From IMG/VR virus record IMGVR_UViG_3300001472_000248, positions 1-20,734 of that record: a stretch of DNA of 20,734 nt. One strand, written 5' to 3'. A program made the position numbers and the translations under genes. Position 1 is the stretch's first letter; every line of letters begins with the position of its first letter. Below, one piece after another: positions 3-20,734 of this stretch. Source of the DNA: a virus. A model generated the notes under the pieces. That model ran no database searches and had not been told where the DNA came from. It saw only the letters and a program-made list of their open reading frames with translations.

Positions 3-749
3 TCTGTAGGTGGCAGTGATAAAGCAGTACCAAGCACTGTTACTCCTTCAAGGACTGCACGAGGAATGAATCTAGGCAATGACAGTGGCGACATAGTACC
101 TGATGCATCATCGGGGAACAAAGAATCTATTGAGAAACTTAAATTAATTTTAGAAGATCCGGCTGCCGATATGATAAACTGTGAATTGCAAATTTTAGGT
201 GATCCATATTGGATTGAACAAAAAACTGTGCGTACAGGAACAAAAACAACAAGTCAAGCTGGTGCTTATATTGAACCGGATGGTTCTATCTCTGTTGACG
301 GATATGAACCTATTATACAGATCAATGCAAAGTTGCCTACAGATATAAATGATGCTAACGGTTTATATAATTTAACAGACACAGCATTTTTCCAAGGTAG
401 ATTCTTAGTTTATATGTGTGAGTCTAGCTTTGAAGGTGGTGTGTTCACACAGACTTTATCTCTAGTAAGACAAAAAGGTCAACAGCGAGACAGACAAAAA
501 GGTGGAATTCAACCCAATGTGTCTTCCAGTAGCTCACTATCTGGTATTTTAGGACAAGCATTTGATCGTGGATTCAACATAGGTGATATATCTGGAGGAA
601 CTACTCCGAATGTTAGCAAAAAAAGTTCATTATTTCCAATTCCTAATCCTCGTAGGAATAAAAAGTTAGTAACAAACCAAGGAAACCCAATTAACTTTAG
701 TAGCGGAGGTGTAAGCTATGGCGGTCTACGCCCGAATAAAAACAGATAA
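3..749 (+). CDS. Probable baseplate hub / tail structural protein, C-terminal part (5' truncated by window edge)
   Basis: The frame is open from the first bases of the window. An ATG lies at 66, but the 21 codons before it (3-65) have no stop and read as ordinary protein, so the true start is probably outside the window and 66 is an internal methionine. The visible part is about 248 residues. It contains a segment with GDPYWI, then an alternating hydrophobic region ending in FQGRFLVY and GGVFTQTLSLVRQ, followed by a Gly/Ser/Asn-rich tail of about 90 residues. A 'small domain, GDP.(W/Y)I, G.F.Q.L...R' arrangement is the kind seen in phage tail hub proteins; this is a pattern judgement, not a firm family match. 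The stop overlaps the start of the spike gene by one base (TAATG), which suggests translational coupling and a role in the central hub. A gp27 equivalent or another hub-associated structural protein are both possible. Confidence 0.6.
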   Translation, partial: SVGGSDKAVPSTVTPSRTARGMNLGNDSGDIVPDASSGNKESIEKLKLILEDPAADMINCELQILGDPYWIEQKTVRTGTKTTSQAGAYIEPDGSISVDGYEPIIQINAKLPTDINDANGLYNLTDTAFFQGRFLVYMCESSFEGGVFTQTLSLVRQKGQQRDRQKGGIQPNVSSSSSLSGILGQAFDRGFNIGDISGGTTPNVSKKSSLFPIPNPRRNKKLVTNQGNPINFSSGGVSYGGLRPNKNR

Positions 750-2689
750 TGCCTGAATTAAGAAGAGAATCAACTCAACTGCCTATGCCAGGTCCATATG
801 TTGGATTTGTAAAAGGCACAGCTGATGTAAACAGAATGGGAAGACTAGATGTTTTTATTCCAGAGTTGCAAGATCGATGGGATAACAATGATGATACTCC
901 GTTGTCTGAAAGAACAATCACAGTAGAATACTGTTCACCATTTGCTGGACAAACACCTTACGTCGACACAGGCGGTGGTGGTGCATTTGGCGCCACACAA
1001 AAATCATACGGATTCTGGATGATACCACCAGATGTAGAAACAAAGGTATTAGTGATGTTTGCAAATGGCAACATTAACAAAGGTTATTGGATTGGATGTA
1101 TTCCTGAAATTGGCGTAAACCATATGACACCTGGAATTGCATCAGCTAAAATTGCTGGAGTAAGTGAAAGCCAGCAAGATAAAGCCAGCACACTCAAAGG
1201 CAAAGGTGGTAGAAGGTCCTCGAAAGCGGCACAACCATCAACTGAGGGGAAATATAGTAGTCTTCCAGGAGTAAAATTTATTCCTGTTGCTGAACCTAAC
1301 AGACGTTCATCCACTATCAAAACAAGCACTAGCTATGAAAAAGATGGATCAGTAGCAACAAGACCTTCACATGACTATCATGCAGATGAATTAGTAAAAC
1401 AAGGTTTGCTTCCAGATCCTATCAGAGGCACTACAACATCATCTGCAAGACGAGAAACACCATCACAAGTGTTTGGTATCAGTACACCAGGACCTATAGA
1501 TCCAAAAGGCAACAAGGTGCCTTTGCGTGAATCAGGAAACAGACATGGTATCACAGAAGATGGAGCTACCTTAGTACATTCAAGATTGGGTGGACACACC
1601 TTTGTAATGGATGATGGAACTCCACCTAAGCATGACGGATCAAAATTTACCACAGATATTGAAAATGAATTAATAAGAATTAGAACACGCTCAGGTGCAC
1701 AAATACTGTTACACAATTCAGAAGACATTGTGTACATTATTAATAATTCGGGTGATGCCTGGATTGAACTTACTGCTAACGGCAAAATTGATGCATATGC
1801 AAATGATTCAATCAGTTTTCACACAAACACTGACTTTAACTTTAGAGCAGAACGTGATGTGAACATAGAAGCAGGAAGAAATATAAATCTTAAAGCCACA
1901 GGCACAAACAAAAAAGAGGGTGAAGACAATTATTTGATAAACTCCGGTGAACAAGCAGTCACAGGAAGAATTCATATGGATGCAAAAGAAGATATTGAAA
2001 TGATTGCTGAACTAGATATCAAAGCCAAGGCAGGGGTTGATATTGAAATGTTTGCTGTAGAAGACATTGCCTTAAAAGCAGAAGATAATATTCAATTAGA
2101 ATCTCAGGACAGTATGCATTTACAATCAAGAGACAATTTTACAATGTATGTTCAAAATTTTGCAGAGATCGAAATTGGCAGTCCAACAACCAGTGACAGT
2201 ACCGGTACAGGCACACTACAACTGAGAGTAAAAAATGATCTAAAAACTTTCATAGGTGACGATCATAAAACATATGTTGGTGGTGATCACCTCTTAGAAG
2301 TTGTAGGAGATGATAAAATATTTGCCGCAAATCATTGGGCCAATGTGACTGGTGAAATACATTTTAACACATCTGGAAAAGTTGCCGCAGGAGTAGTTGG
2401 TGCAACCATAGTAGCAGAAAATGTTGTTGGTGACAAAGGCGAACGGGTGCCTTCAGATGTTGTAGTGCCACTTACTACATTTTTAAATGTAGGTGTAGAT
2501 CCACTGTATCCTGAAGAGGAAAGATTATCTATCATGAAACGTGTGCCTACAGTTGAACCATATGCAGAGCATGAAAATAAAAAATTATTTAGATCTGATC
2601 AAACACGTACAGACAGAGAAATTGAACTTGAACAAAGATTTGAAGAAGAGTCTACTACAGAGTCAGTTCCTAATCCAGGAGGAAGATAA
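749..2689 (+). CDS. Baseplate central spike / hub protein, gp5-VgrG-like, without a visible lysozyme domain
   Basis: This is the trimeric needle at the centre of the baseplate, which pierces the cell envelope when the tail contracts. The N-terminus (about residues 12-125) reads as the gp5 OB fold: GPYVGFVKG, MGRLDVFIPEL, a Gly-rich loop, then YGFWMIPPDVETKVLVMFAN and GYWIGCIPE. Residues about 130-265 are a charged, Ser/Lys/Thr-rich linker where T4 gp5 carries its lysozyme domain; no Glu/Asp/Thr catalytic arrangement is evident. From about 265 there is a VgrG-like strand region (LGGHTFVMDDG, GAQILLHN). From about 370 to 475 there are short repeats of the DVNIEAGRNINLKA type, expected to form the intertwined beta-helix. 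A segment RVPTVEPYAEHEN starts at residue 598, near an acidic C-terminus. T4 gp5 is 575 residues, this one 646. The start is fixed by the one-base overlap with the upstream stop; the stop overlaps the PAAR gene in the same way. Confidence 0.88.
   Translation: MPELRRESTQLPMPGPYVGFVKGTADVNRMGRLDVFIPELQDRWDNNDDTPLSERTITVEYCSPFAGQTPYVDTGGGGAFGATQKSYGFWMIPPDVETKVLVMFANGNINKGYWIGCIPEIGVNHMTPGIASAKIAGVSESQQDKASTLKGKGGRRSSKAAQPSTEGKYSSLPGVKFIPVAEPNRRSSTIKTSTSYEKDGSVATRPSHDYHADELVKQGLLPDPIRGTTTSSARRETPSQVFGISTPGPIDPKGNKVPLRESGNRHGITEDGATLVHSRLGGHTFVMDDGTPPKHDGSKFTTDIENELIRIRTRSGAQILLHNSEDIVYIINNSGDAWIELTANGKIDAYANDSISFHTNTDFNFRAERDVNIEAGRNINLKATGTNKKEGEDNYLINSGEQAVTGRIHMDAKEDIEMIAELDIKAKAGVDIEMFAVEDIALKAEDNIQLESQDSMHLQSRDNFTMYVQNFAEIEIGSPTTSDSTGTGTLQLRVKNDLKTFIGDDHKTYVGGDHLLEVVGDDKIFAANHWANVTGEIHFNTSGKVAAGVVGATIVAENVVGDKGERVPSDVVVPLTTFLNVGVDPLYPEEERLSIMKRVPTVEPYAEHENKKLFRSDQTRTDREIELEQRFEEESTTESVPNPGGR
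2677..2682 (+). promoter_or_regulatory. Strong Shine-Dalgarno for the PAAR gene
   Basis: AGGAGG lies within the last codons of the spike gene, six bases before the ATG at 2689. It is the only near-perfect ribosome-binding site in front of any gene start in this window. It supports the 2689 start and implies high expression of the tip protein relative to its neighbours. Confidence 0.75.
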
Positions 2690-2949
2690 TGCCAGGAGTA
2701 TGCAGAGATAATGATGCGGCAGGAGGAGATTTAGTTCCTTCACAGACCACAGTAATAGCTAATGGCGAAGAAATAATTGTAAATGGTGATACAGTAGCAG
2801 TTCATGGTGTTATTCCCCATTTAGAACAAACCATAGTAGCAGGATCAAATGCAGTGTTTGTTGGCGGTAAAGCAGTGTGTAATGCTGGCGATGTTGCGTC
2901 AGTTTGTGGCGAGGCTGCTACAGGCTCCAGTGATGTATTTGTAGGATAA
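2689..2949 (+). CDS. PAAR-like baseplate spike tip protein (gp5.4-like)
   Basis: This 86-residue protein opens with MPGVCRDND and runs as short glycine-punctuated beta segments (VIANGEEIIVNGDTVAVHG, then VFVGGKAVCNAGD), typical of PAAR proteins, which form a small cone that caps the spike trimer and sharpens it. PAAR cones hold a metal ion near the apex through His and Cys side chains. Candidate ligands here are C5, H39, H44, C64 and C73, with GVIPH (residues 40-44) and C64 in the places where PAAR families often carry ligands. T4 gp5.4 is 97 residues, so the length fits. The gene starts on the stop of the spike gene (TAATG) behind a strong ribosome-binding site, as expected for partners that assemble together. 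Confidence 0.85.
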   Translation: MPGVCRDNDAAGGDLVPSQTTVIANGEEIIVNGDTVAVHGVIPHLEQTIVAGSNAVFVGGKAVCNAGDVASVCGEAATGSSDVFVG

Positions 2950-3099: not shown

Positions 3100-3552
3100 A
3101 TGGCAGTCAAAAATTTCAACGAGATAGATGGTACTCAACAGGGTGTTAACAACACCAGAATATTTCGTGGGCATTCTACAGTGGGAAGAACATTTTCCGA
3201 CACAAAAATTTACGATATTGAACTAGTAAAACAAGATTTACTCAATCATTTCAATATTCTCAAGGGAGAAAAACTCGAAAATCCTGATTTTGGCACTAAT
3301 ATTTGGTTATATTTGTTCGATCCGCTGGATGATGACTTAAAACAGTCAGTACTTGACGATATAGATTCAATTATTGCCTATGATCCGAGAGTAGAGTTGG
3401 ATAAAGTAGAAGTTAACCAATATGAACATGGATTGTCTATCAAGGTATCTGTGCTGTATACTGGGTACGGATTGGGCGAAACAATGGATCTTTTGTTTGA
3501 TCAAACAGAAGGCTTGCTTACTAATGGCTCTCAAGTTTATTCTGCCGCCTAA
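3100..3552 (+). CDS. 25: Baseplate wedge protein gp25 (GPW/gp25 family)
   Basis: Gp25 is the small wedge protein that, with gp6, forms the baseplate core and helps template the first ring of the sheath; relatives are TssE of type VI secretion and gpW of P2. The sequence shows the family core: YDIELVKQDLLNHFNILKGE, then NPDFGTNIWLYLFDPLDDD, an amphipathic helix, YDPRVELDKVEV and a closing beta hairpin (LSIKVSVLYTGYG). Length is 150 residues against 132 in T4. The N-terminal 35 residues carry a polar extension. The ATG follows the TAA of the cysteine-rich gene after one base. No strong Shine-Dalgarno is visible. Old databases often label this family 'lysozyme', but no hydrolase motif is present here. 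Confidence 0.93.
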   Translation: MAVKNFNEIDGTQQGVNNTRIFRGHSTVGRTFSDTKIYDIELVKQDLLNHFNILKGEKLENPDFGTNIWLYLFDPLDDDLKQSVLDDIDSIIAYDPRVELDKVEVNQYEHGLSIKVSVLYTGYGLGETMDLLFDQTEGLLTNGSQVYSAA

Positions 3553-3591: not shown

Positions 3592-6500
3592 ATGCCGTCA
3601 ACCGATAGACAAAACGCCTTGCTGGTTAATACTGCTTGGCAAAAGATTTATAGAACGTTCTCACAAGCAGACTTCAAATCGTATGATTTTGACACTGTAA
3701 GAAGAACACTAATAGATTACCTTAGATTAAACTATTCAGAGTCTTTTAATGATTATATCGAGTCTTCGGAATACGTTGCACTAATAGATTTAATATCGTA
3801 TATTGCCCAATCAATATCATACAGAGTAGATTTAAATGCTAGAGAAAACTTTATAGATCTTGCAGAACGGAAAGAATCTGTCTTAAGACTAGCAAGACTA
3901 ATTTCTTATCAACCAAAAAGAAATATTGCCGCGTCTGGACAATTAAAAATTGTTTCTATAACAACCACAGAAACAGTGTTTGACGCAAACAACAACAATT
4001 TAGCAAATACTCCTATCCTTTGGAATGATGTTACAAATAATAATTGGCAAGAACAATTTAATGCAGTGCTTAATGCATCATTACCTAGATCACAATCAGT
4101 AGGAAAACCTGTTGCTTCTAGTACAATTGGAGGCACAACTACAGAAGTTTATAGATTTAATTCAACAAATTTAGGACTGCCGATATTTAATTTTTCAAGA
4201 AATATCAACGGTTTTAATTCATTGTTTGAAATAATTCCAAGTGAGATAAAAGATGGGTTTGTTGTAGAAGAAGCACCGGTGCCAGGAAATGCACTTAGTT
4301 TCCTTTATAAAAATGATACAAAAGGATTTGCATCAAAGAACACCGGATATTTTTTACAGTTTAAACAAGGCACATTAACTAGTGAGCAATTTAGTATTAC
4401 GTCACAACTACCTAATACAAAGTATTCAATCGCTGATGCTAACATCAACAATGATGATGTATTTTTATTTAAATTAGATCAAAATAATATACTAGAAGAA
4501 TATTGGCAAAAAGTTCCAGCAATAACCGGTAACAATGTAATATACAATTCTTTAGCAAAAAATATTACAAATCAGTATGCTGTAATTACAAAAGAAAATG
4601 ATGCAATTGATTTAGTATTCAGTGATGGCACATATGGTGCTATGCCGGTTGGAAATTTTGTAGCGTATTACAGACAATCAAATGGCTTGTCATACAGAAT
4701 ACAAACATCGGATATGCAAAATGTTAATATTGATTTACAGTATGTTTCAAGAGATAATCAAGTTAACACAATGTCTATTACAATGTCATTACAAAATACA
4801 ATTACTAATGCGGCAGCTTCTCAATCTATATCTGATATACGTACACTTGCTCCACAATCTTATTACACAAATAACAGAATGATATCTCCAGAAGATTATC
4901 AAATTGTGCCGTTGATTGAAAATCCTTCACTAATAAAAGTTAGATCACAAGTGCGAGCAATAAGTGGTACATCGAGATTTTTAGATGTAACAGATCCAAG
5001 TGGTGTTTATTCTGAAACAGACATTGTTGCAGATGACGGAATGCTGTACAGAGATATTACAACAGAAACGTTTGACTTCAGTTTTACTACAAGAGATGAT
5101 GCTAGAAAAGTTGTGGTCAGTTCTGTATCTAATATTTTTGAATCTGAGTCATTAAAACAATATTATTATGAAAATTTTCCTAGACCGCAAATAGCAGGTC
5201 AAAAATTATGGAATAAAACTACACAAACAACTAGTCAAGTTTCTGGCTACTTTAAAGATGTTGCAGATGATTCAAGCATTTATGCAGTTGGTACCTCAGC
5301 ATTAAACAATTTACAATACATTAAGTCAGGTGCACTTGTTAAATTTATTCCAACATCTGGAAATCACTTTATGCCGCAACTTGGCACACAAATGACTGGT
5401 ACTGGAGGACATCCAGGCAGTGCAGATGTTATGTGGACAAAAGTAATCAGTGTAGAAGGAGATGGGTCAAATGGAGGATTAGGAGATCTTGCAGACGGAA
5501 CAGGGCCTATTGTCGTTACAGATTTTATTCCTACTGATGCACAGATAACAGAAATTATTCCAACATTTATAGATTCGATCTCAACAACTTTAGAAACTTC
5601 TATAATAGACAACATAGTAGCATACAAAAATTTTGGTTTAGGTTACAACAAAGAAAAAAGCGAATGGTATGTAATTAACGAAGATGATATAAAGGCATCA
5701 GGTTCGTTTGATTTAAGTGATGCACAAAATACTACTAGTTCAAACTTAGATGCATCTTGGCTCATACGATTTTCAACAAATGGTGTTACTTACACAGTAA
5801 CTAATAGAGCAACTCAGTATATTTTCCAAAGTTTTAGTAGAAATAAATTTTATCTTGATGAGTCAGAAAAAGCAACAGATCCAGAAACAGGGTTAACAAT
5901 AAAAGATTCTGTAACAGTACTGAAGTCAAACACTAAACCTGATTTTGTAAGCAATTTAACATATGATTATAAATGGCGTATTGTAAAAAATGTACTAGCA
6001 AGTGACGGATACAATGATACACGAAAAATGCAAGTAGGATTATTTGATTCAGATGATGACGGTGTTTACGATAATCCTGATCTTTTTGAATTAGTAGTTG
6101 CACCAGCAACCAGTCAAGACAACAAGTATGTGTTTTTTCAAACTGTAACAAAAAACGGTTTTGAACAAGACGATCCTGTGTCTAACATCAACTTTGTAAC
6201 AGTGTCTGCAGAATCTGATATTACAAATCCAGGTATCTATATAGATGGTCAAAAGTTTTATTTTTACAGCACTGATGAATTTAAATCTTACAGTACTGTT
6301 TCTAATACCTTGGTGGCAATTACAGGATATAAAGCAAAACTAGGAAGACAAGATTTAATTTACAAATATAATCATGGAGCTCCAAGAACAAGACGATTAG
6401 ATCCTTCTGTTAGCAATATTATTGAATGTTATGTAATGACAAAAAACTATGATACTGACTTTAGAAGTTGGCTTAACAATAATCAAATTACATCGAAACC

Positions 6501-7101
6501 AACAGCACCAACCATATCAACGTTGAACGACACATATGGCCAGTCATTGAATCAACTTAAAAGCATAAGTGACACATTTATATTTGTACCTGGACAATAT
6601 GTCTTATTGTTCGGTAAAGGAGCTGAATCAGATTTACAAGCAACATTTAAAGTAGTAAAAAATCCTAACACAGCGATATCTGATAATTCAATCAAGTCAC
6701 AAATGATTACTGCTATAAACAATTTCTTTTCAGTGCAATTATGGGATTTTGGTGATACGTTTTACTTTACTGAATTAGCCGCATATTTGCACAACGTCCT
6801 AGCACCAGATGTGTTGAGTGTTGTAATTGTTCCATCAAGTTCGTCTGTGTCTTTTGGTTCACTATTTGAAGTAACAGTAAAAGACAGTGAGATTCCTGTT
6901 TCATCTGCAACTGTAGACAACGTTGAAGTGATAAGTTCTAACACAGCAGAACAATTGAAAGCAACTGGTACAGTTGTATCATCAACGGGAACAAATACTT
7001 CAACAGTAACAAATGGTACGACAGCAACTTCGTCATCTACTTCAACAAGTTCTGTAACATCAACAGCAACTTCGGGATCATCGGGTTCAGGATACTATTA
7101 A
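3592..7101 (+). CDS. 6: Baseplate wedge protein gp6 (enlarged)
   Basis: Gp6 dimers form the continuous inner ring that ties baseplate wedges together. The N-terminal 120 residues match T4-like gp6 in style: YDFDTVRRTLIDYLRLNY, then YVALIDLISYIAQSISYRVD, LNARENFIDLAERKESVLRL and a short YQPKR segment. Gp6/gpJ-like features recur (RMISPEDYQIVPL, about 433-445), and a C-terminal domain around 1010-1080 (FVPGQYVLLFGKG, LWDFGDTFYFTELAAYLHN) looks like the gpJ-type wedge fold. The length is 1,169 residues, while T4 gp6 is 660, so roughly 500 residues have been added, mostly between about 450 and 1000. An EF-hand-like loop DxDxDGxxD is at D819-D827. The last 45 residues (1125-1169) are 29 Ser/Thr, ending GSGYY. 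The start is supported by the typical N-terminus; no clear ribosome-binding site precedes it. Confidence 0.88.
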   Translation: MPSTDRQNALLVNTAWQKIYRTFSQADFKSYDFDTVRRTLIDYLRLNYSESFNDYIESSEYVALIDLISYIAQSISYRVDLNARENFIDLAERKESVLRLARLISYQPKRNIAASGQLKIVSITTTETVFDANNNNLANTPILWNDVTNNNWQEQFNAVLNASLPRSQSVGKPVASSTIGGTTTEVYRFNSTNLGLPIFNFSRNINGFNSLFEIIPSEIKDGFVVEEAPVPGNALSFLYKNDTKGFASKNTGYFLQFKQGTLTSEQFSITSQLPNTKYSIADANINNDDVFLFKLDQNNILEEYWQKVPAITGNNVIYNSLAKNITNQYAVITKENDAIDLVFSDGTYGAMPVGNFVAYYRQSNGLSYRIQTSDMQNVNIDLQYVSRDNQVNTMSITMSLQNTITNAAASQSISDIRTLAPQSYYTNNRMISPEDYQIVPLIENPSLIKVRSQVRAISGTSRFLDVTDPSGVYSETDIVADDGMLYRDITTETFDFSFTTRDDARKVVVSSVSNIFESESLKQYYYENFPRPQIAGQKLWNKTTQTTSQVSGYFKDVADDSSIYAVGTSALNNLQYIKSGALVKFIPTSGNHFMPQLGTQMTGTGGHPGSADVMWTKVISVEGDGSNGGLGDLADGTGPIVVTDFIPTDAQITEIIPTFIDSISTTLETSIIDNIVAYKNFGLGYNKEKSEWYVINEDDIKASGSFDLSDAQNTTSSNLDASWLIRFSTNGVTYTVTNRATQYIFQSFSRNKFYLDESEKATDPETGLTIKDSVTVLKSNTKPDFVSNLTYDYKWRIVKNVLASDGYNDTRKMQVGLFDSDDDGVYDNPDLFELVVAPATSQDNKYVFFQTVTKNGFEQDDPVSNINFVTVSAESDITNPGIYIDGQKFYFYSTDEFKSYSTVSNTLVAITGYKAKLGRQDLIYKYNHGAPRTRRLDPSVSNIIECYVMTKNYDTDFRSWLNNNQITSKPTAPTISTLNDTYGQSLNQLKSISDTFIFVPGQYVLLFGKGAESDLQATFKVVKNPNTAISDNSIKSQMITAINNFFSVQLWDFGDTFYFTELAAYLHNVLAPDVLSVVIVPSSSSVSFGSLFEVTVKDSEIPVSSATVDNVEVISSNTAEQLKATGTVVSSTGTNTSTVTNGTTATSSSTSTSSVTSTATSGSSGSGYY
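6964..7098 (+). repeat. Ser/Thr-rich low-complexity C-terminal tail of gp6
   Basis: The last 45 codons of gp6 encode 29 Ser or Thr, with Gly, Asn, Val and Ala filling most of the rest and no charged residue. The DNA has imperfect runs of tca/aca codons. This looks like a flexible linker or tail rather than a folded domain. Confidence 0.8.
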
Positions 7102-7102
7102 A

Positions 7103-10100
7103 ATGGGGAAGAGTACACGCAAAACGCAGGCTCTATTACCAAGTGTTTTCCAAACGCCGAAGAACAATGATTTTCTTGAAGCAACTTTGGATCAATTGGT
7201 TGAACCAGCTAAAACGCAAAAACTATCACAGTATGTTGGTAGAACAACCGTTCCAAGTTATAAAACCACAGACGGGTATATACCAGAAGCCACTGATGAC
7301 AGAAAAAATTATCAATTAGAAACTGCAACAGTATATAGATCAGATGGAAATACTGTTGATTTTGCCGCACCTTATATTGATGTAATCAACGAGATCAGTG
7401 CAAGTGGTGGCAACAATAGTAAACATGACAGAATGCTATCTAATGATACATTTTCTTATACGCCACCTATTGATGCAGATAAGTTTGTAAACTATCGAGA
7501 ATATTATTGGATGGGCATGGGATTATCACCTGTGCGATTGTATGCAGGCACACCGGGAGCTAATATATCTTTTGATGTTGTAAACAATGCCGCCGGCGGT
7601 TACAAATTCAGTCACAAAACTGCAAGTAATCCAGACATCATTGTTTATAAAGGAAACACATACAATTTTGATATAGGTGCATATGGACACCCTTTTTGGA
7701 TCAAATCACAATATGGTACTGGAACAGATAATGCAATAGGATCAAGTTTAGTAATTAACAACGGTCAACAAAATGGCAGAGTCACACTTAAAGTTCCTGC
7801 AAGTGATTCTAGCACCAGTTATCCAGAAGTATTGTACTACCAGTGTCAACACCATACAGCAATGCGTGGTAGAATAATTGTAAGAGACCTTAGCGATGAA
7901 CTATTTGATGTAACTGAAAATTTAATAGGTGTAACTGAGTTTACTGACTTCTCAGGATTAAAATTATCCAACGGACTCACAGTATCAACATCATCGGACC
8001 TATCGGAAACCTACCAAAACAAAACTTATTACATAGAAGGAGTTGGTAGCACAATTGATCTTGTTGCAGAGACTGAGATGCGTACATACGGTGACTGGGC
8101 ACAAGACATCGGAGCCATATGGGATGAAAATGGAATTGAAGGTTGGGATACCGCAGGTTTTGATAATTCAACAGGACAACTTGTAAGAACTGATTACTTT
8201 ACAATATCTAGGCAAGCACCAGATAGAAATGCTTGGTCAAGATCTAATAGATGGTTTCATAAAGATGTAATACTTGAATCAAATAAAAGAAACAACTATT
8301 CTCAGATTTTACCTGAAACAGCAAGAGCAAAAAGACCTATTATTGAATTCCAGTCAGGCTTAAATTTATACAATTACGGATCATTGCATAGAGTAGTTGA
8401 TGTGGTAGACACACTTACAACAGATGCATTATCTTTAGTTTCGGGAACAGTCGGGTTTACTGCTGATGGTACATTATTACGAGAAGGCGACAGAGTAGTT
8501 TTCACTAGTGACCCAATTGAAAATAACAAAATTTTTACAGTACGATATCTATCACTTGATTCGTCTACAGCATTATCAAACGTAGACAATCCTACACAAA
8601 TTCATCTTCAACTAGAAGATGACTCAACAGTGATTGCTGACGACACTTCTATTGTATCTAAACGTGGAGATAAAAATAAAGGACAAGCATATCATTATAG
8701 CAGAAGCAATGCAACATGGACAAAGTCACAGCAAAAAACAGGAGTAAATCAAGCACCATTATTTGATGTATACAACACAGCAGGTATATCTTTGGGAGAT
8801 TTGACTGCTTATACATCAACTAACTTTACTGGTACTACTGTATTTCAAATAAACACTGATGAACAGGGAACACCTGATACAATATATGGCCAAAACGTTT
8901 TGTATTCTAGGTTAGGACTGTTATCGGATATACAAGTCAAAGATACATTTGACAGTGATACTTTTGCGTATGTTACTGGATCAGCAACACAAGTAGAGAA
9001 CGTAAAACAATATTATCTTAGAAAAACTGATAGACTTGGAAACCAAAACTACATTACAAATTACACGAAATCAGGCAACGCAGTTAGACAACGAGTAATA
9101 CAACAATATGTTGCAGGAAAAAATCAAACTGATTTCGAAGTGTTATCTTATGACAAACCTTCTACACTTGCAGACATAGATGTTCACGTTTTTGTAAATG
9201 GTGCAAAAATTTCTAAGTTTACTCAAGTGGAAGGCACTGACAACAAATTATTTGCAAGACTAACAACTGGATCGAAAGATAATGATATTATAACTATTAA
9301 AACACATAGTACTTTAGGAAAAAGAACATCTATAGGTTATTATGAAGTATCTGTCTCTGCAGAAAAAAATCCTCTTAATGAAGGTATATCAATATTCACA
9401 GTTGGTGACATAAACGAGCACTATCTATCAGCACTGAATAATCTGAATACAGTAACAGGGACACAAATTGGAACAAATAATACAAGAGACTTAGAACAAG
9501 TATTTGTAAACGGCACAAACATTTTGCAACATGAAGGCAGTATGCCTCTTGCTTCTCTTTTTGCTAGAGACACCGCAGTAAATTTAGTGGATGCTTGGAG
9601 ACAATCAGGCACACACTACGAACAGTATAAGGCAACTGTACTTAAAACGTGTGATAAAGTTGTGCTTGGAGATATAGCAAGAGATAATCTTGACACAATT
9701 TTAGAAGAAATAAATCTTAATAAAAATGCAACATTTGCATATTATGACTCGGACATGTTGGCATATGGCAATGATAAAACAGTTTTAAAATATACAGTAA
9801 CTGATGCAAGTGTAGTTTTTTATCCAATGACTACTGCTTTTAATTTAGAATCTACAAATGATTCTGCGATCTATGTGTATGTGAATGATGTTCAATTGAC
9901 ACATGGCACAGATTATGAATTTGTAGGATTGAGTGATAGTGCTAACTTTAATGGTATAGAAATAAAAAGTAGTTTGTCTGTAAATGATGTCATTAAAATT
10001 GAGGAACACGTTATTACTACTGCAAGTTTTTTACCGCCTACACCCGCAAAACTAGGACTTGCTCCTGCATACGAACCAACATTATCTTTCGATAACACTT

Positions 10101-13100: not shown

Positions 13101-16100
13101 CCATAATAGATTTTAGTGGACAAGCACAAGGCATATACAGATTAGAAGAGCCTTTTGACAGTACAGATACTGCTACATCATTTACACTTGCAATATCAGA
13201 TACTTTAGATAGTGTGTTTACTCAAGGCACTTTAGCAAAACTTCAATCAGTAAGAATAAATGATTTTGATGAGTTGACTAACATAGTACCGTCAAAAGGA
13301 TGGAGAGAAAATGATTATGTATACGTGGATAATAATTATGAAACTAATGGCGGGTTATGGCAAGTATACAAACGTGATTCTTTAGGAAATTTTGAACTTG
13401 CTGACATATCCACTCTACCTTTAAATTCTGATCTGTCTGATGCAAAAATTGATGATGAAGAATTTGGACATTCTATGTCGTTGTCAAAGGATACAAGATG
13501 GATGGCAGTTGGTTCTGCTAACAAAGAAAGAATATTAATTTATAATAGAGCAACGTCAATTGACCCAATTATAAACTATTCACAAATAGTTCCAGATATT
13601 AAAAATGCCGCAGCTGATGATGAGTTTGGCCAGAGTGTTGCAATATCAAGCAATGGAAAAACAATTTTAGTAGGTGCGCCTAAGACCGGGGATATAATAA
13701 GACTTGTTTCTAATCACCCTGACAGCACAAGAACACTTGCACGTGGTCAAGATGTAGTAGGGTCTGAAACAACTGCTACAGGAAAAATTTTAAGATACGA
13801 AGAAGGTGAAACACAAGATGTATTATACATCAAGGTTTCGTCAGGCACGAACTTTGCAGATTCGGCACTGGATATATCCGACTCCTCTACAGTTTCAATT
13901 ATAGACGGACTTACTGATGGAGATCGAACAGATCAAGGTACAGTGCATATAGTCACTAGAAATGCAGACGAATTGTATGCAACAACAGAAAATATTGTTT
14001 CACCTGTGTTTGCACAAGGTGAACTATTTGGACAAAGTGTTGCTATTAGTGGAGACGGAGAATGGGTAGCTGTTGGTGCTCCTGGTGGACCAAATGACTC
14101 AACTTTCAGTAACAGAGGTTCGGTATATGTGTACAAAAAAATTGTCGATAGTAGCACACTTAGTACAACTAGATATGTTTATCAACAAACTCTAGCTCCT
14201 GGAGACAATCCAGAGCAAAAAGATGATAGTGGCAACCAAGGTATGCAGTTTGGTGATAATATTGTAATGAGCAATGATGGAAACACTATTGTTGTAGGTG
14301 CTAAACTTTACGATGATTCATCTATAACAGATTCTGGTAGAATCTTTGTTTATAGAAAACTAAATGATTCATTTGTTAAGATTGAAGAGTTTGGACCGGA
14401 TGTGGCATTTGATGAAACAAGATTTGGTGAAAGTGTTGTAATTAGTGATGATGGTACAGACTTATTAGTAGGCAGTCCGCGTGAAAAGAATACATTGTCA
14501 GAACAAGGTGTAGTGTATCACTACTTAAACAACAGTTCAGCACACATAGGTGACGGGTCAACTACTGCTTTTACACCAACGTTTACTGTAGACAAATATA
14601 CAAAATTGTATGTGTCTGTGAGTACTACACAAGTTAAATTTGATGACTCTTCATCAACATCAACATATCATATAAATGCGGCAACAAATCTAGTAACTTT
14701 GGCTACAACACCGCCATTAGGAGCACAAATTGTAATTCAACAGTACAAAAAACAAGCACGGATATTGTCAAATCCAATTGAGCAAGGTGCAAGATTTGGC
14801 GAATCTATGGCGTTAGCTGACAACATGCTGGCCGTGTATTCTGCAAGTGGACTGACAACTAGAGATACATCATTTGATAAGTTATTGCTTGATAGTTCCT
14901 CAAATTTAGCCAATGAAACTACATTTGATAACAAAGGTACGTCATTCTCAACTCGAATTCAAGATACAGGAAATGTGCAAATATTTCAAAAATATGATGA
15001 TACGTGGATACACAACGAAGTATTAACAAATGTCACTGGAACTGTTGATGATAGTTTTGGAAAAAGTATTGCATTATCATCACAAAATGTTTACGTTGCC
15101 GCACCTGGAAGAGAAATATCTGTAGGTAGTGATTCAACCAGAGTAGATGCAGGTGAAGTTTATGTTTATAACAAAACAAGTAATGTAAATTATTGGAACG
15201 TAGACGTAACACAACCTAACTTAGTGAATCCTTATTTGATCAAAAAAACTTTCTTGTATACACAAGGAAACAATAAACTTTTATTAGATATGCCTAGAAT
15301 TGATCCTGTGAAGAACTTATTCTTTGCACAGATTGATCAAGATATAAAATATAAAACTGATTTTGATCCAGCAAACTACGATTCATGGAACGATGAACAT
15401 GTTGGTGAAATTTGGTTAAACACTACCCAACTTAAATTCTTGTGGTACGAGCAAGGTGATCTAAACTACAAACTTCGCAACTGGGGTAAACCTCATCCGT
15501 CTGCAGTGATATCAGTCAAAGAATGGGTAAAAAGTACATTGACTCCGAGTCAATGGAATGCTCAGTCAATTACCGAAGATGGGTCAAATGCAGGAATCAC
15601 TGGTACAGCAAATGAAGACTTTAATACACAAGATGTCTTCAGTGATATTACTAACAATTTTATAACATTTTATTATTACTGGGTTGAACAACCAACTATT
15701 TTACCTAACGTGTCTACAAGGTCAGTCACAGCGGCACAAATAGCTAATACAATTCAAGATCCGAAAACATTCACAGACAATTACACAGCAATTATTTCAG
15801 ATGATGCTTTATTATTAAGCATACAAGCAAGTATTTTAACAAATAAAAATCTTTCATTCCATATAGAAAACACCAGTGACGAAAATGAACTAGAACCACA
15901 TGTTGAATATCTAATGGTAGCAGAAGGTGATGACGGTGTAAAAATTAATTCTACACTTGTTGCAAAAATGGAAGACTCATTAATAGGAACTGATAGTTTT
16001 GGTAGAAAAGTGCCTGACTTAACTTTCCCAGATGACATGAGATACGGGTTAGAAAACAGACCAAGACAAACTATTTTCAAAGATAGAACTGATGCTTTAA

Positions 16101-20092: not shown

Positions 20093-20734
20093 TTATAGTC
20101 TTCCAACTACAACTTCAATAACACCTATATCGCTAGTGTCTTTTGACTCAAGTGCTTTACCGATAACACATCCTATTTGATATGATGATGTATTAAGTTT
20201 AGTGCCTACGCCTTCAACGTTGGATGCTACTATGATATCACCTTTAGCAACAACACCTTTAACTTTGCATGGAACACGCCCAGTTAACGCCAAGTCGATT
20301 ACATAAGTTGCTTCTAAACTGCTGTTCATCAAGTATGCTGGTGCTGTAGATACAACTCCTGCTACTCTAGTATCATGTGATAGTGTAGTTGTTGTGACTT
20401 CATTGTCTCCACCAAATATAACAACTGTGCCTGGCTCATATTGAGCATCACTAACATATTTCTCTGCCAAGTCAGAATATTGTGCGGCAGACGCTGTGGA
20501 TGCAATTACGTTGGTATTTGGATTGTAAGTTAGGTTAGTATCTGTTTCGATACCCTGTGTGCCAGTTGCTCCATCAACAAATGTTATGAAAACATTTTCA
20601 TCTGCTGTGTTGTTTGCAGTAACAGTTACCGCTGTTGCTAATGCCGCTGTTCCTGATGTGTTTTGGTTACCTGCGGAATTTACGCCAGGCAAGTTAATAT
20701 TAGCAGAACCGTTAAACGAAACACCACCAAGTGT
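20093..20734 (-). CDS. Tail-fibre-like virion structural protein, C-terminal part (5' end beyond right window edge)
   Basis: The frame is open through the right edge (213 residues visible). A TTG at 20690-20692 could be read as a start, but the codons upstream of it (TLGGVSFNGSANIN) continue the same repeat style, so the gene surely begins outside. The N-terminal visible part has the NTSGTAALA and GIETDTNLTYNPNTNVI patterns found in collar or fibre repeats of T4-like marine phages. From about residue 82 of the visible part comes a compact C-terminal domain: AAQYSDLAEKYVSD, YEPGTVVIFGG, HDTRVAGVVSTAPAYLMNS, LALTGRVPCKV, GDIIVASNVEGV, IGKALE. This domain type commonly ends phage tail fibres or other virion proteins. 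It is the only gene on the - strand, convergent with the giant gene. Confidence 0.75.
   Translation of the reverse strand, partial: TLGGVSFNGSANINLPGVNSAGNQNTSGTAALATAVTVTANNTADENVFITFVDGATGTQGIETDTNLTYNPNTNVIASTASAAQYSDLAEKYVSDAQYEPGTVVIFGGDNEVTTTTLSHDTRVAGVVSTAPAYLMNSSLEATYVIDLALTGRVPCKVKGVVAKGDIIVASNVEGVGTKLNTSSYQIGCVIGKALESKDTSDIGVIEVVVGRL

Follow-up and report, generated by a model that had tools for sequence, protein, structure and literature searches.

A domain with cupredoxin fold and complete type-1 ligand set in a giant phage baseplate-cluster protein is one copy of a mobile tail and fibre module

Introduction

Cupredoxins are known from small blue copper proteins like amicyanin, plastocyanin, azurin and rusticyanin, which act as free carriers in the periplasm or the thylakoid and hold their copper by His, Cys, His and Met. 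The copper loop of amicyanin has the spacing C-x2-H-x2-M. Type-1 sites can also be empty or contain Zn(II), Hg(II) or Ag(I). The same fold occurs in structural proteins such as the coagulation factors V and VIII, most domains of which lack type-1 copper.

Apart from a few iron and zinc sites, metals in virions have received little attention. One of the described cases is the T4-type tail fibre, where iron at HxH sites was seen in a T4 crystal structure; metal held by tail proteins is discussed for marine phages, too (PMC11705849).

Here we describe a cupredoxin domain in a giant protein encoded on a virus record of 20.7 kb (the whole stretch is called the window in the following), which carries a baseplate gene cluster on the plus strand and probably derives from an aquatic virus of bacteria. 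The domain is like amicyanin, plastocyanin, azurin and rusticyanin in its fold and in the order and places of the four ligands; it also has the loop spacing of amicyanin, a likeness that is limited to this spacing. In contrast to the free carriers, it is part of a giant phage baseplate-cluster protein and is itself missed by Pfam and NCBIfam. It differs from the coagulation factors by its full ligand set. With the T4-type tail fibre it would share a metal held by a phage tail protein, whereas metal, fold and coordination are different and the copper is predicted. In the literature searched, the domain was not described as a phage structural, virion, tail, fibre or baseplate cupredoxin. Cupredoxins as such are known, but as a widespread virion tail module with intact copper ligands they appear to be undescribed; some copies may carry an automatic superfamily annotation (InterPro/SUPERFAMILY).

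Results

The positions of the analyzed features are given in Table 1. The giant gene lies in a cluster with the spike, PAAR, gp25-like and gp6-like genes, which agrees with the baseplate location proposed in the initial annotation. Profile matches to phrog_10938 along the protein, in three pieces (7.6e-45, 1e-184 and 6.3e-67), place it in this family. In the phages PA5oct and Phosso the homologue of the giant gene likewise comes after two baseplate wedge genes, and for the one of Pseudomonas phage PA5oct the annotation gives a virion structural protein and an ESI-MS/MS note.

Table 1. Coordinates of the baseplate gene cluster, the slot and the ligand residues in the window.
Feature	Position	Strand	Remark
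gp5-like spike / hub protein	749..2689	+	
PAAR spike tip	2689..2949	+	
gp25-like baseplate wedge gene	3100..3552	+	PF04965
gp6-like baseplate wedge gene	3592..7101	+	phrog_10646
Giant virion structural protein, 4320 aa	7103..20065	+	phrog_10938; first gene after the gp25- and gp6-like genes
Conserved segment on the N-terminal side of the slot, residues ~5-146	7115..7540	+	Common to jumbo phages PA5oct, Phosso, Atu_ph07
Cupredoxin-fold domain, residues 153-263 (approx.)	7559..7891	+	AlphaFold, Foldseek, VIA; C-termini of phrog_677 and phrog_9158
H196, N-terminal His ligand	7688..7690	+	CAC, in GHPFW; directly precedes strand 51-54 of the model
C248, Cys ligand	7844..7846	+	Only Cys of the domain; ends strand 96-101 of the model
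H251, second His ligand	7853..7855	+	Loop after C248
M254, axial Met ligand	7862..7864	+	Directly precedes the last strand
Conserved segment on the C-terminal side of the slot, from residue 273	7919..8092	+	

Two further features were noted by the way. Residues ~2121-2669 of the giant protein (13463-15110) contain, as judged by eye, seven FG-GAP-like repeats (FGxSxxxSxDGxxxxVGAP) which resemble those of integrin-alpha beta-propellers. On the minus strand, a convergent open reading frame (20093-20734) leaves the end of the record; it resembles the C-terminal part of a tail fibre protein and has only a weak match in Pfam.

For residues 148-268 a structure was predicted with AlphaFold from an alignment of 45 viral sequences (mean pLDDT 90.9, pTM 0.85). 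The model is a Greek-key beta-sandwich and belongs, together with its structure matches, to the cupredoxin fold that had been proposed from the letters alone. Foldseek against the PDB revealed 165 chains at E <= 1e-3, the best 50 of which are two-domain laccases and rusticyanins. VIA-align gave Z scores of 10.3 for a small laccase, 10.1 for the N-domain of nitrite reductase and 10.0 for rusticyanin, the latter superposing with 2.3 A over 95 residues.

The four residues H196, C248, H251 and M254 were recovered where the initial annotation had placed them, on the plus strand in the open reading frame of the giant protein; the minus strand has no open reading across the ligand interval in the frame read. 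They correspond to residues 49, 101, 104 and 107 of the model, where the second His and the Met stand in the loop that precedes strand 108-114. Read from this topology and from the fold matches, the topological arrangement in the predicted structure is that of a type-1 site, and the claimed set of His, Cys, His and Met is present in its typical order and topological places. The distance from the first His to the Cys is 52 residues here and 53 in rusticyanin. The pattern H-x(40-62)-C-x2-H-x2-M occurs once in the giant protein and in none of 5000 composition shuffles. An internal disulphide was considered and rejected, because the domain has a single Cys; the giant protein contains four Cys in all.

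At the sequence level the domain alone shows no significant match in Pfam, NCBIfam or the PDB sequence set. PF00127 (Copper-bind) matches neither the domain nor the A1 members, and the amicyanin model TIGR02657 has no match to the domain and gives 12.4 bits for the gp9 copy at a cut-off of 110.2. The broader family profile has only a weak link, to blue copper proteins. A clearer link is given by a member of the same domain family from Bacteroidota (L231), which matches PF00127 with 32.3 bits (cut-off 21.2) and, among PDB sequences, plastocyanin, auracyanin, pseudoazurin, amicyanin, nitrite reductase and rusticyanin. In the alignments with the plastocyanins 3bqv and 1b3i, its first His aligns with the His of the PHN motif, the copper ligand of plastocyanin; in the 2plt plastocyanin alignments it is two residues off. 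Rusticyanin was of little help for this position, since the profile comparison aligned only the last 22 columns and MAFFT misplaced the first His of rusticyanin or set it opposite gaps. The correspondence of the first His is therefore based on the two plastocyanin alignments of L231 and on the topology.

As a mobile module of tail and fibre proteins, the domain was found in ~270-350 phage records, many of these phages infecting cyanobacteria. It forms the C-terminus of cyanophage gp9, the baseplate wedge tail fibre connector (phrog_677), a copy with matches in 340 phage records. Profile matches connect the domain of the giant protein to phrog_677 (E 3.5e-16) and phrog_9158 (E 6.7e-13). The C-terminal domain of gp9 (phrog_677) and the fibre domains of P-SSM2 (phrog_9158 and others) are ~38-42% identical to it and have the same four ligands, but they are C-terminal or linker modules, whereas the copy in the giant protein is an insert in a slot. 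P-SSM2 carries one domain in a collagen-like fibre and two copies in another fibre. Podovirus proteins contain the domain as well, and so does the long tail fibre of S-SCSM1, annotated as virion protein. The virion proteome of S-SCSM1 has been measured (PMC9602691). One phage copy bears the annotation PetE. In ten further copies from isolate phages, inspected by eye, H...C-x2-H-x2-M was present in all ten. The few cellular relatives, secreted-looking proteins of Bacteroidota and one deltaproteobacterial protein, carry the full ligand set in seven of seven cases. The ligand set that had been reported as a copper site of the baseplate protein is indeed there, but it is not special to this protein, which holds one copy of a domain found in many tail and fibre proteins and in some secreted bacterial proteins.

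The domain also occurs together with S8 (subtilisin-like) proteases of phages. In S-H9-1 it stands at the end of such a protease and in S-SCSM2R it adjoins one; the fused or neighbouring arrangements include L062 (815-2821), L063 (1-2303) and L101. Among the cellular relatives, a flavobacterial protein (L227) combines repeated CHRD domains with a C-terminal cupredoxin of this family that has all four ligands.

In the giant protein the domain sits near the N-terminus, where two conserved segments enclose it. The slot contains a 16-residue linker in PA5oct (L026) and a different sequence of 73 residues in the Sinorhizobium phage Phosso (L027); it is a possible insertion hotspot. A search that took only the N-terminal segment as query, and in which the ligands played no part, revealed 67 distinct slots with a cupredoxin-like match. 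C-x2-H-x2-M is present in 5 of these and absent in the rest, a few long slots being only partly covered by the profile. One ligandless slot (L191) was modelled and also has the cupredoxin fold (pLDDT 87.1), with AcoP, nitrite reductase and rusticyanin as best PDB matches and the cupredoxin folds of the structural coagulation factors V and VIII among the matches. It belongs to a large ligandless clade (L153-L226), in which the copper loop is replaced by a conserved polar loop, S-x-N-D-[IV]-[DN]. This loop is perhaps a site rebuilt for another ion or for a hydrogen-bond network. At this slot copper is an optional property of the module. Copper cannot be a general requirement of baseplate assembly, since the majority of the relatives have at this site a cupredoxin fold that lacks the ligands.

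In total, 172 distinct copies of the domain were compared. The Cys is present in 95 of them; the loop His and the Met accompany it in 94 of these 95 copies, and 90 have the first His, too. None of the copies without the Cys has the loop His, and the Met, found in 99% of the Cys-bearing copies, is retained in some ligandless ones. Partial sets are few: L043, L044 and L148 have Cys, His and Met without the first His, and L048 has the Cys only. The search for copies outside the slot used HPFxI among its patterns and so favours copies with the first His, a bias from which the slot searches are free.

An unrooted tree with many weak forks was built from 120 rows and 102 columns without the ligand columns. 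On this tree the state of the Cys changes five times and that of the loop His six times, where five is an estimate from a short tree with weak forks. In all five groups that lost the Cys, the first His and the loop His were lost with it (in the largest group the first His in most rows only), and the Met was lost in two of the five. For comparison, 15 other well-conserved columns were lost in zero to two of these groups, in a table that is descriptive; an independent-pairs sign test was not significant, with too few supported pairs. The cellular members and the solved relatives carry the ligand set, which suggests for the unrooted tree that the changes were losses rather than gains. The homologue alignment proposed in the initial annotation was run, and the ligands turned out to be either invariant or, for the core, lost together and not at random, apart from the few partial cases.

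Discussion

The fold, the ligand set, its concerted loss, the mobility of the module and the ligandless versions at the same site are established by computation. The metal site is very probably real, and it is quite likely that the domain, as predicted, binds copper. The domain is a genuine cupredoxin with a type-1 set under selection. That it serves as a metal-stabilised, exposed tail module is the reading we favour, with a little more confidence than doubt for the whole of it. Residues 153-263 are such a cupredoxin, inserted into a giant baseplate-cluster protein, and marine phages attach single domains of this mobile family to gp9, to tail fibres and to tail-associated proteases. Since virions assemble in the reducing cytoplasm, copper would probably be taken up outside the cell or at lysis. 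The domain may be an exposed module that acts as a spacer or makes contacts, and the main effect of the metal would be to staple and stabilise it in the free particle; host contact or redox chemistry could come in addition. Among the possible roles, stabilisation is the least specific, and as the main role it is less certain than the binding of copper.

It is unlikely that the fold is used only as a beta-sandwich spacer, as a relic or with four residues that bind zinc in the virion or no metal at all. The large ligandless clade with the same fold in the same slot would fit this, as would the coagulation factor V and VIII folds among the matches of the ligandless model and the copper-poor cytoplasm in which virions assemble. 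However, H, C, H and M are strictly retained at ~40% identity and the core is lost as a set, which argues for selection on the metal site.

Still less probable is a role in host contact, in which the copper-loaded domain would dock as a 'Trojan horse' on proteins in the outer membrane of the host, for copper uptake or of another kind, and aid adsorption. In most of the contexts found the carrier is a tail, fibre or secreted protein, and parallels exist. A Trojan-horse mechanism is discussed for iron in the tail fibres of marine phages (PMC11705849), and a contact of the cupredoxin azurin with the copper transporter OprC has been reported (PMC6907878), but another group did not reproduce it with native OprC (PMC8610252). 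The copies without ligands that occupy this site in the giant protein also speak against the role, and the module is found in too many different proteins for one receptor-binding tip.

A redox function, with copper giving or taking electrons to sense the periplasm or to imitate plastocyanin during entry, we consider very unlikely. The type-1 set is complete, plastocyanins are the closest sequence matches of the relative L231 and many carriers infect cyanobacteria, but there is no known partner, ligandless versions occupy the same site, the few copies per virion could move only few electrons, and the relatives in secreted proteins of Bacteroidota have no photosynthetic partner.

Chance co-occurrence of the four residues in an unrelated beta domain, to which the lack of a significant Pfam, NCBIfam or PDB sequence match for the domain alone might point, is refuted by the shuffles, the fold match, the concerted loss and the homologues down to ~40% identity that keep all four ligands, as the initial annotation had expected of a set beyond chance.

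The domain can be studied in cultured phages. It is present in the cyanophages P-SSM2, P-SSM4 and S-SSM5, so that virion copper is directly testable, as are a dependence on the copper of sea water and an effect on adsorption or decay. Because the site was lost repeatedly at a single position of one protein, metal-bearing versions can be compared with metal-free ones as they occur in nature. We regard it as rather improbable that the tails and fibres of many marine phages bear cupredoxins loaded with copper and that the metal takes part in infection. If true, the metal would act by docking on host copper-uptake proteins or as a redox trigger, copper would be a cofactor of virions, and phages would be carriers of copper in the sea.
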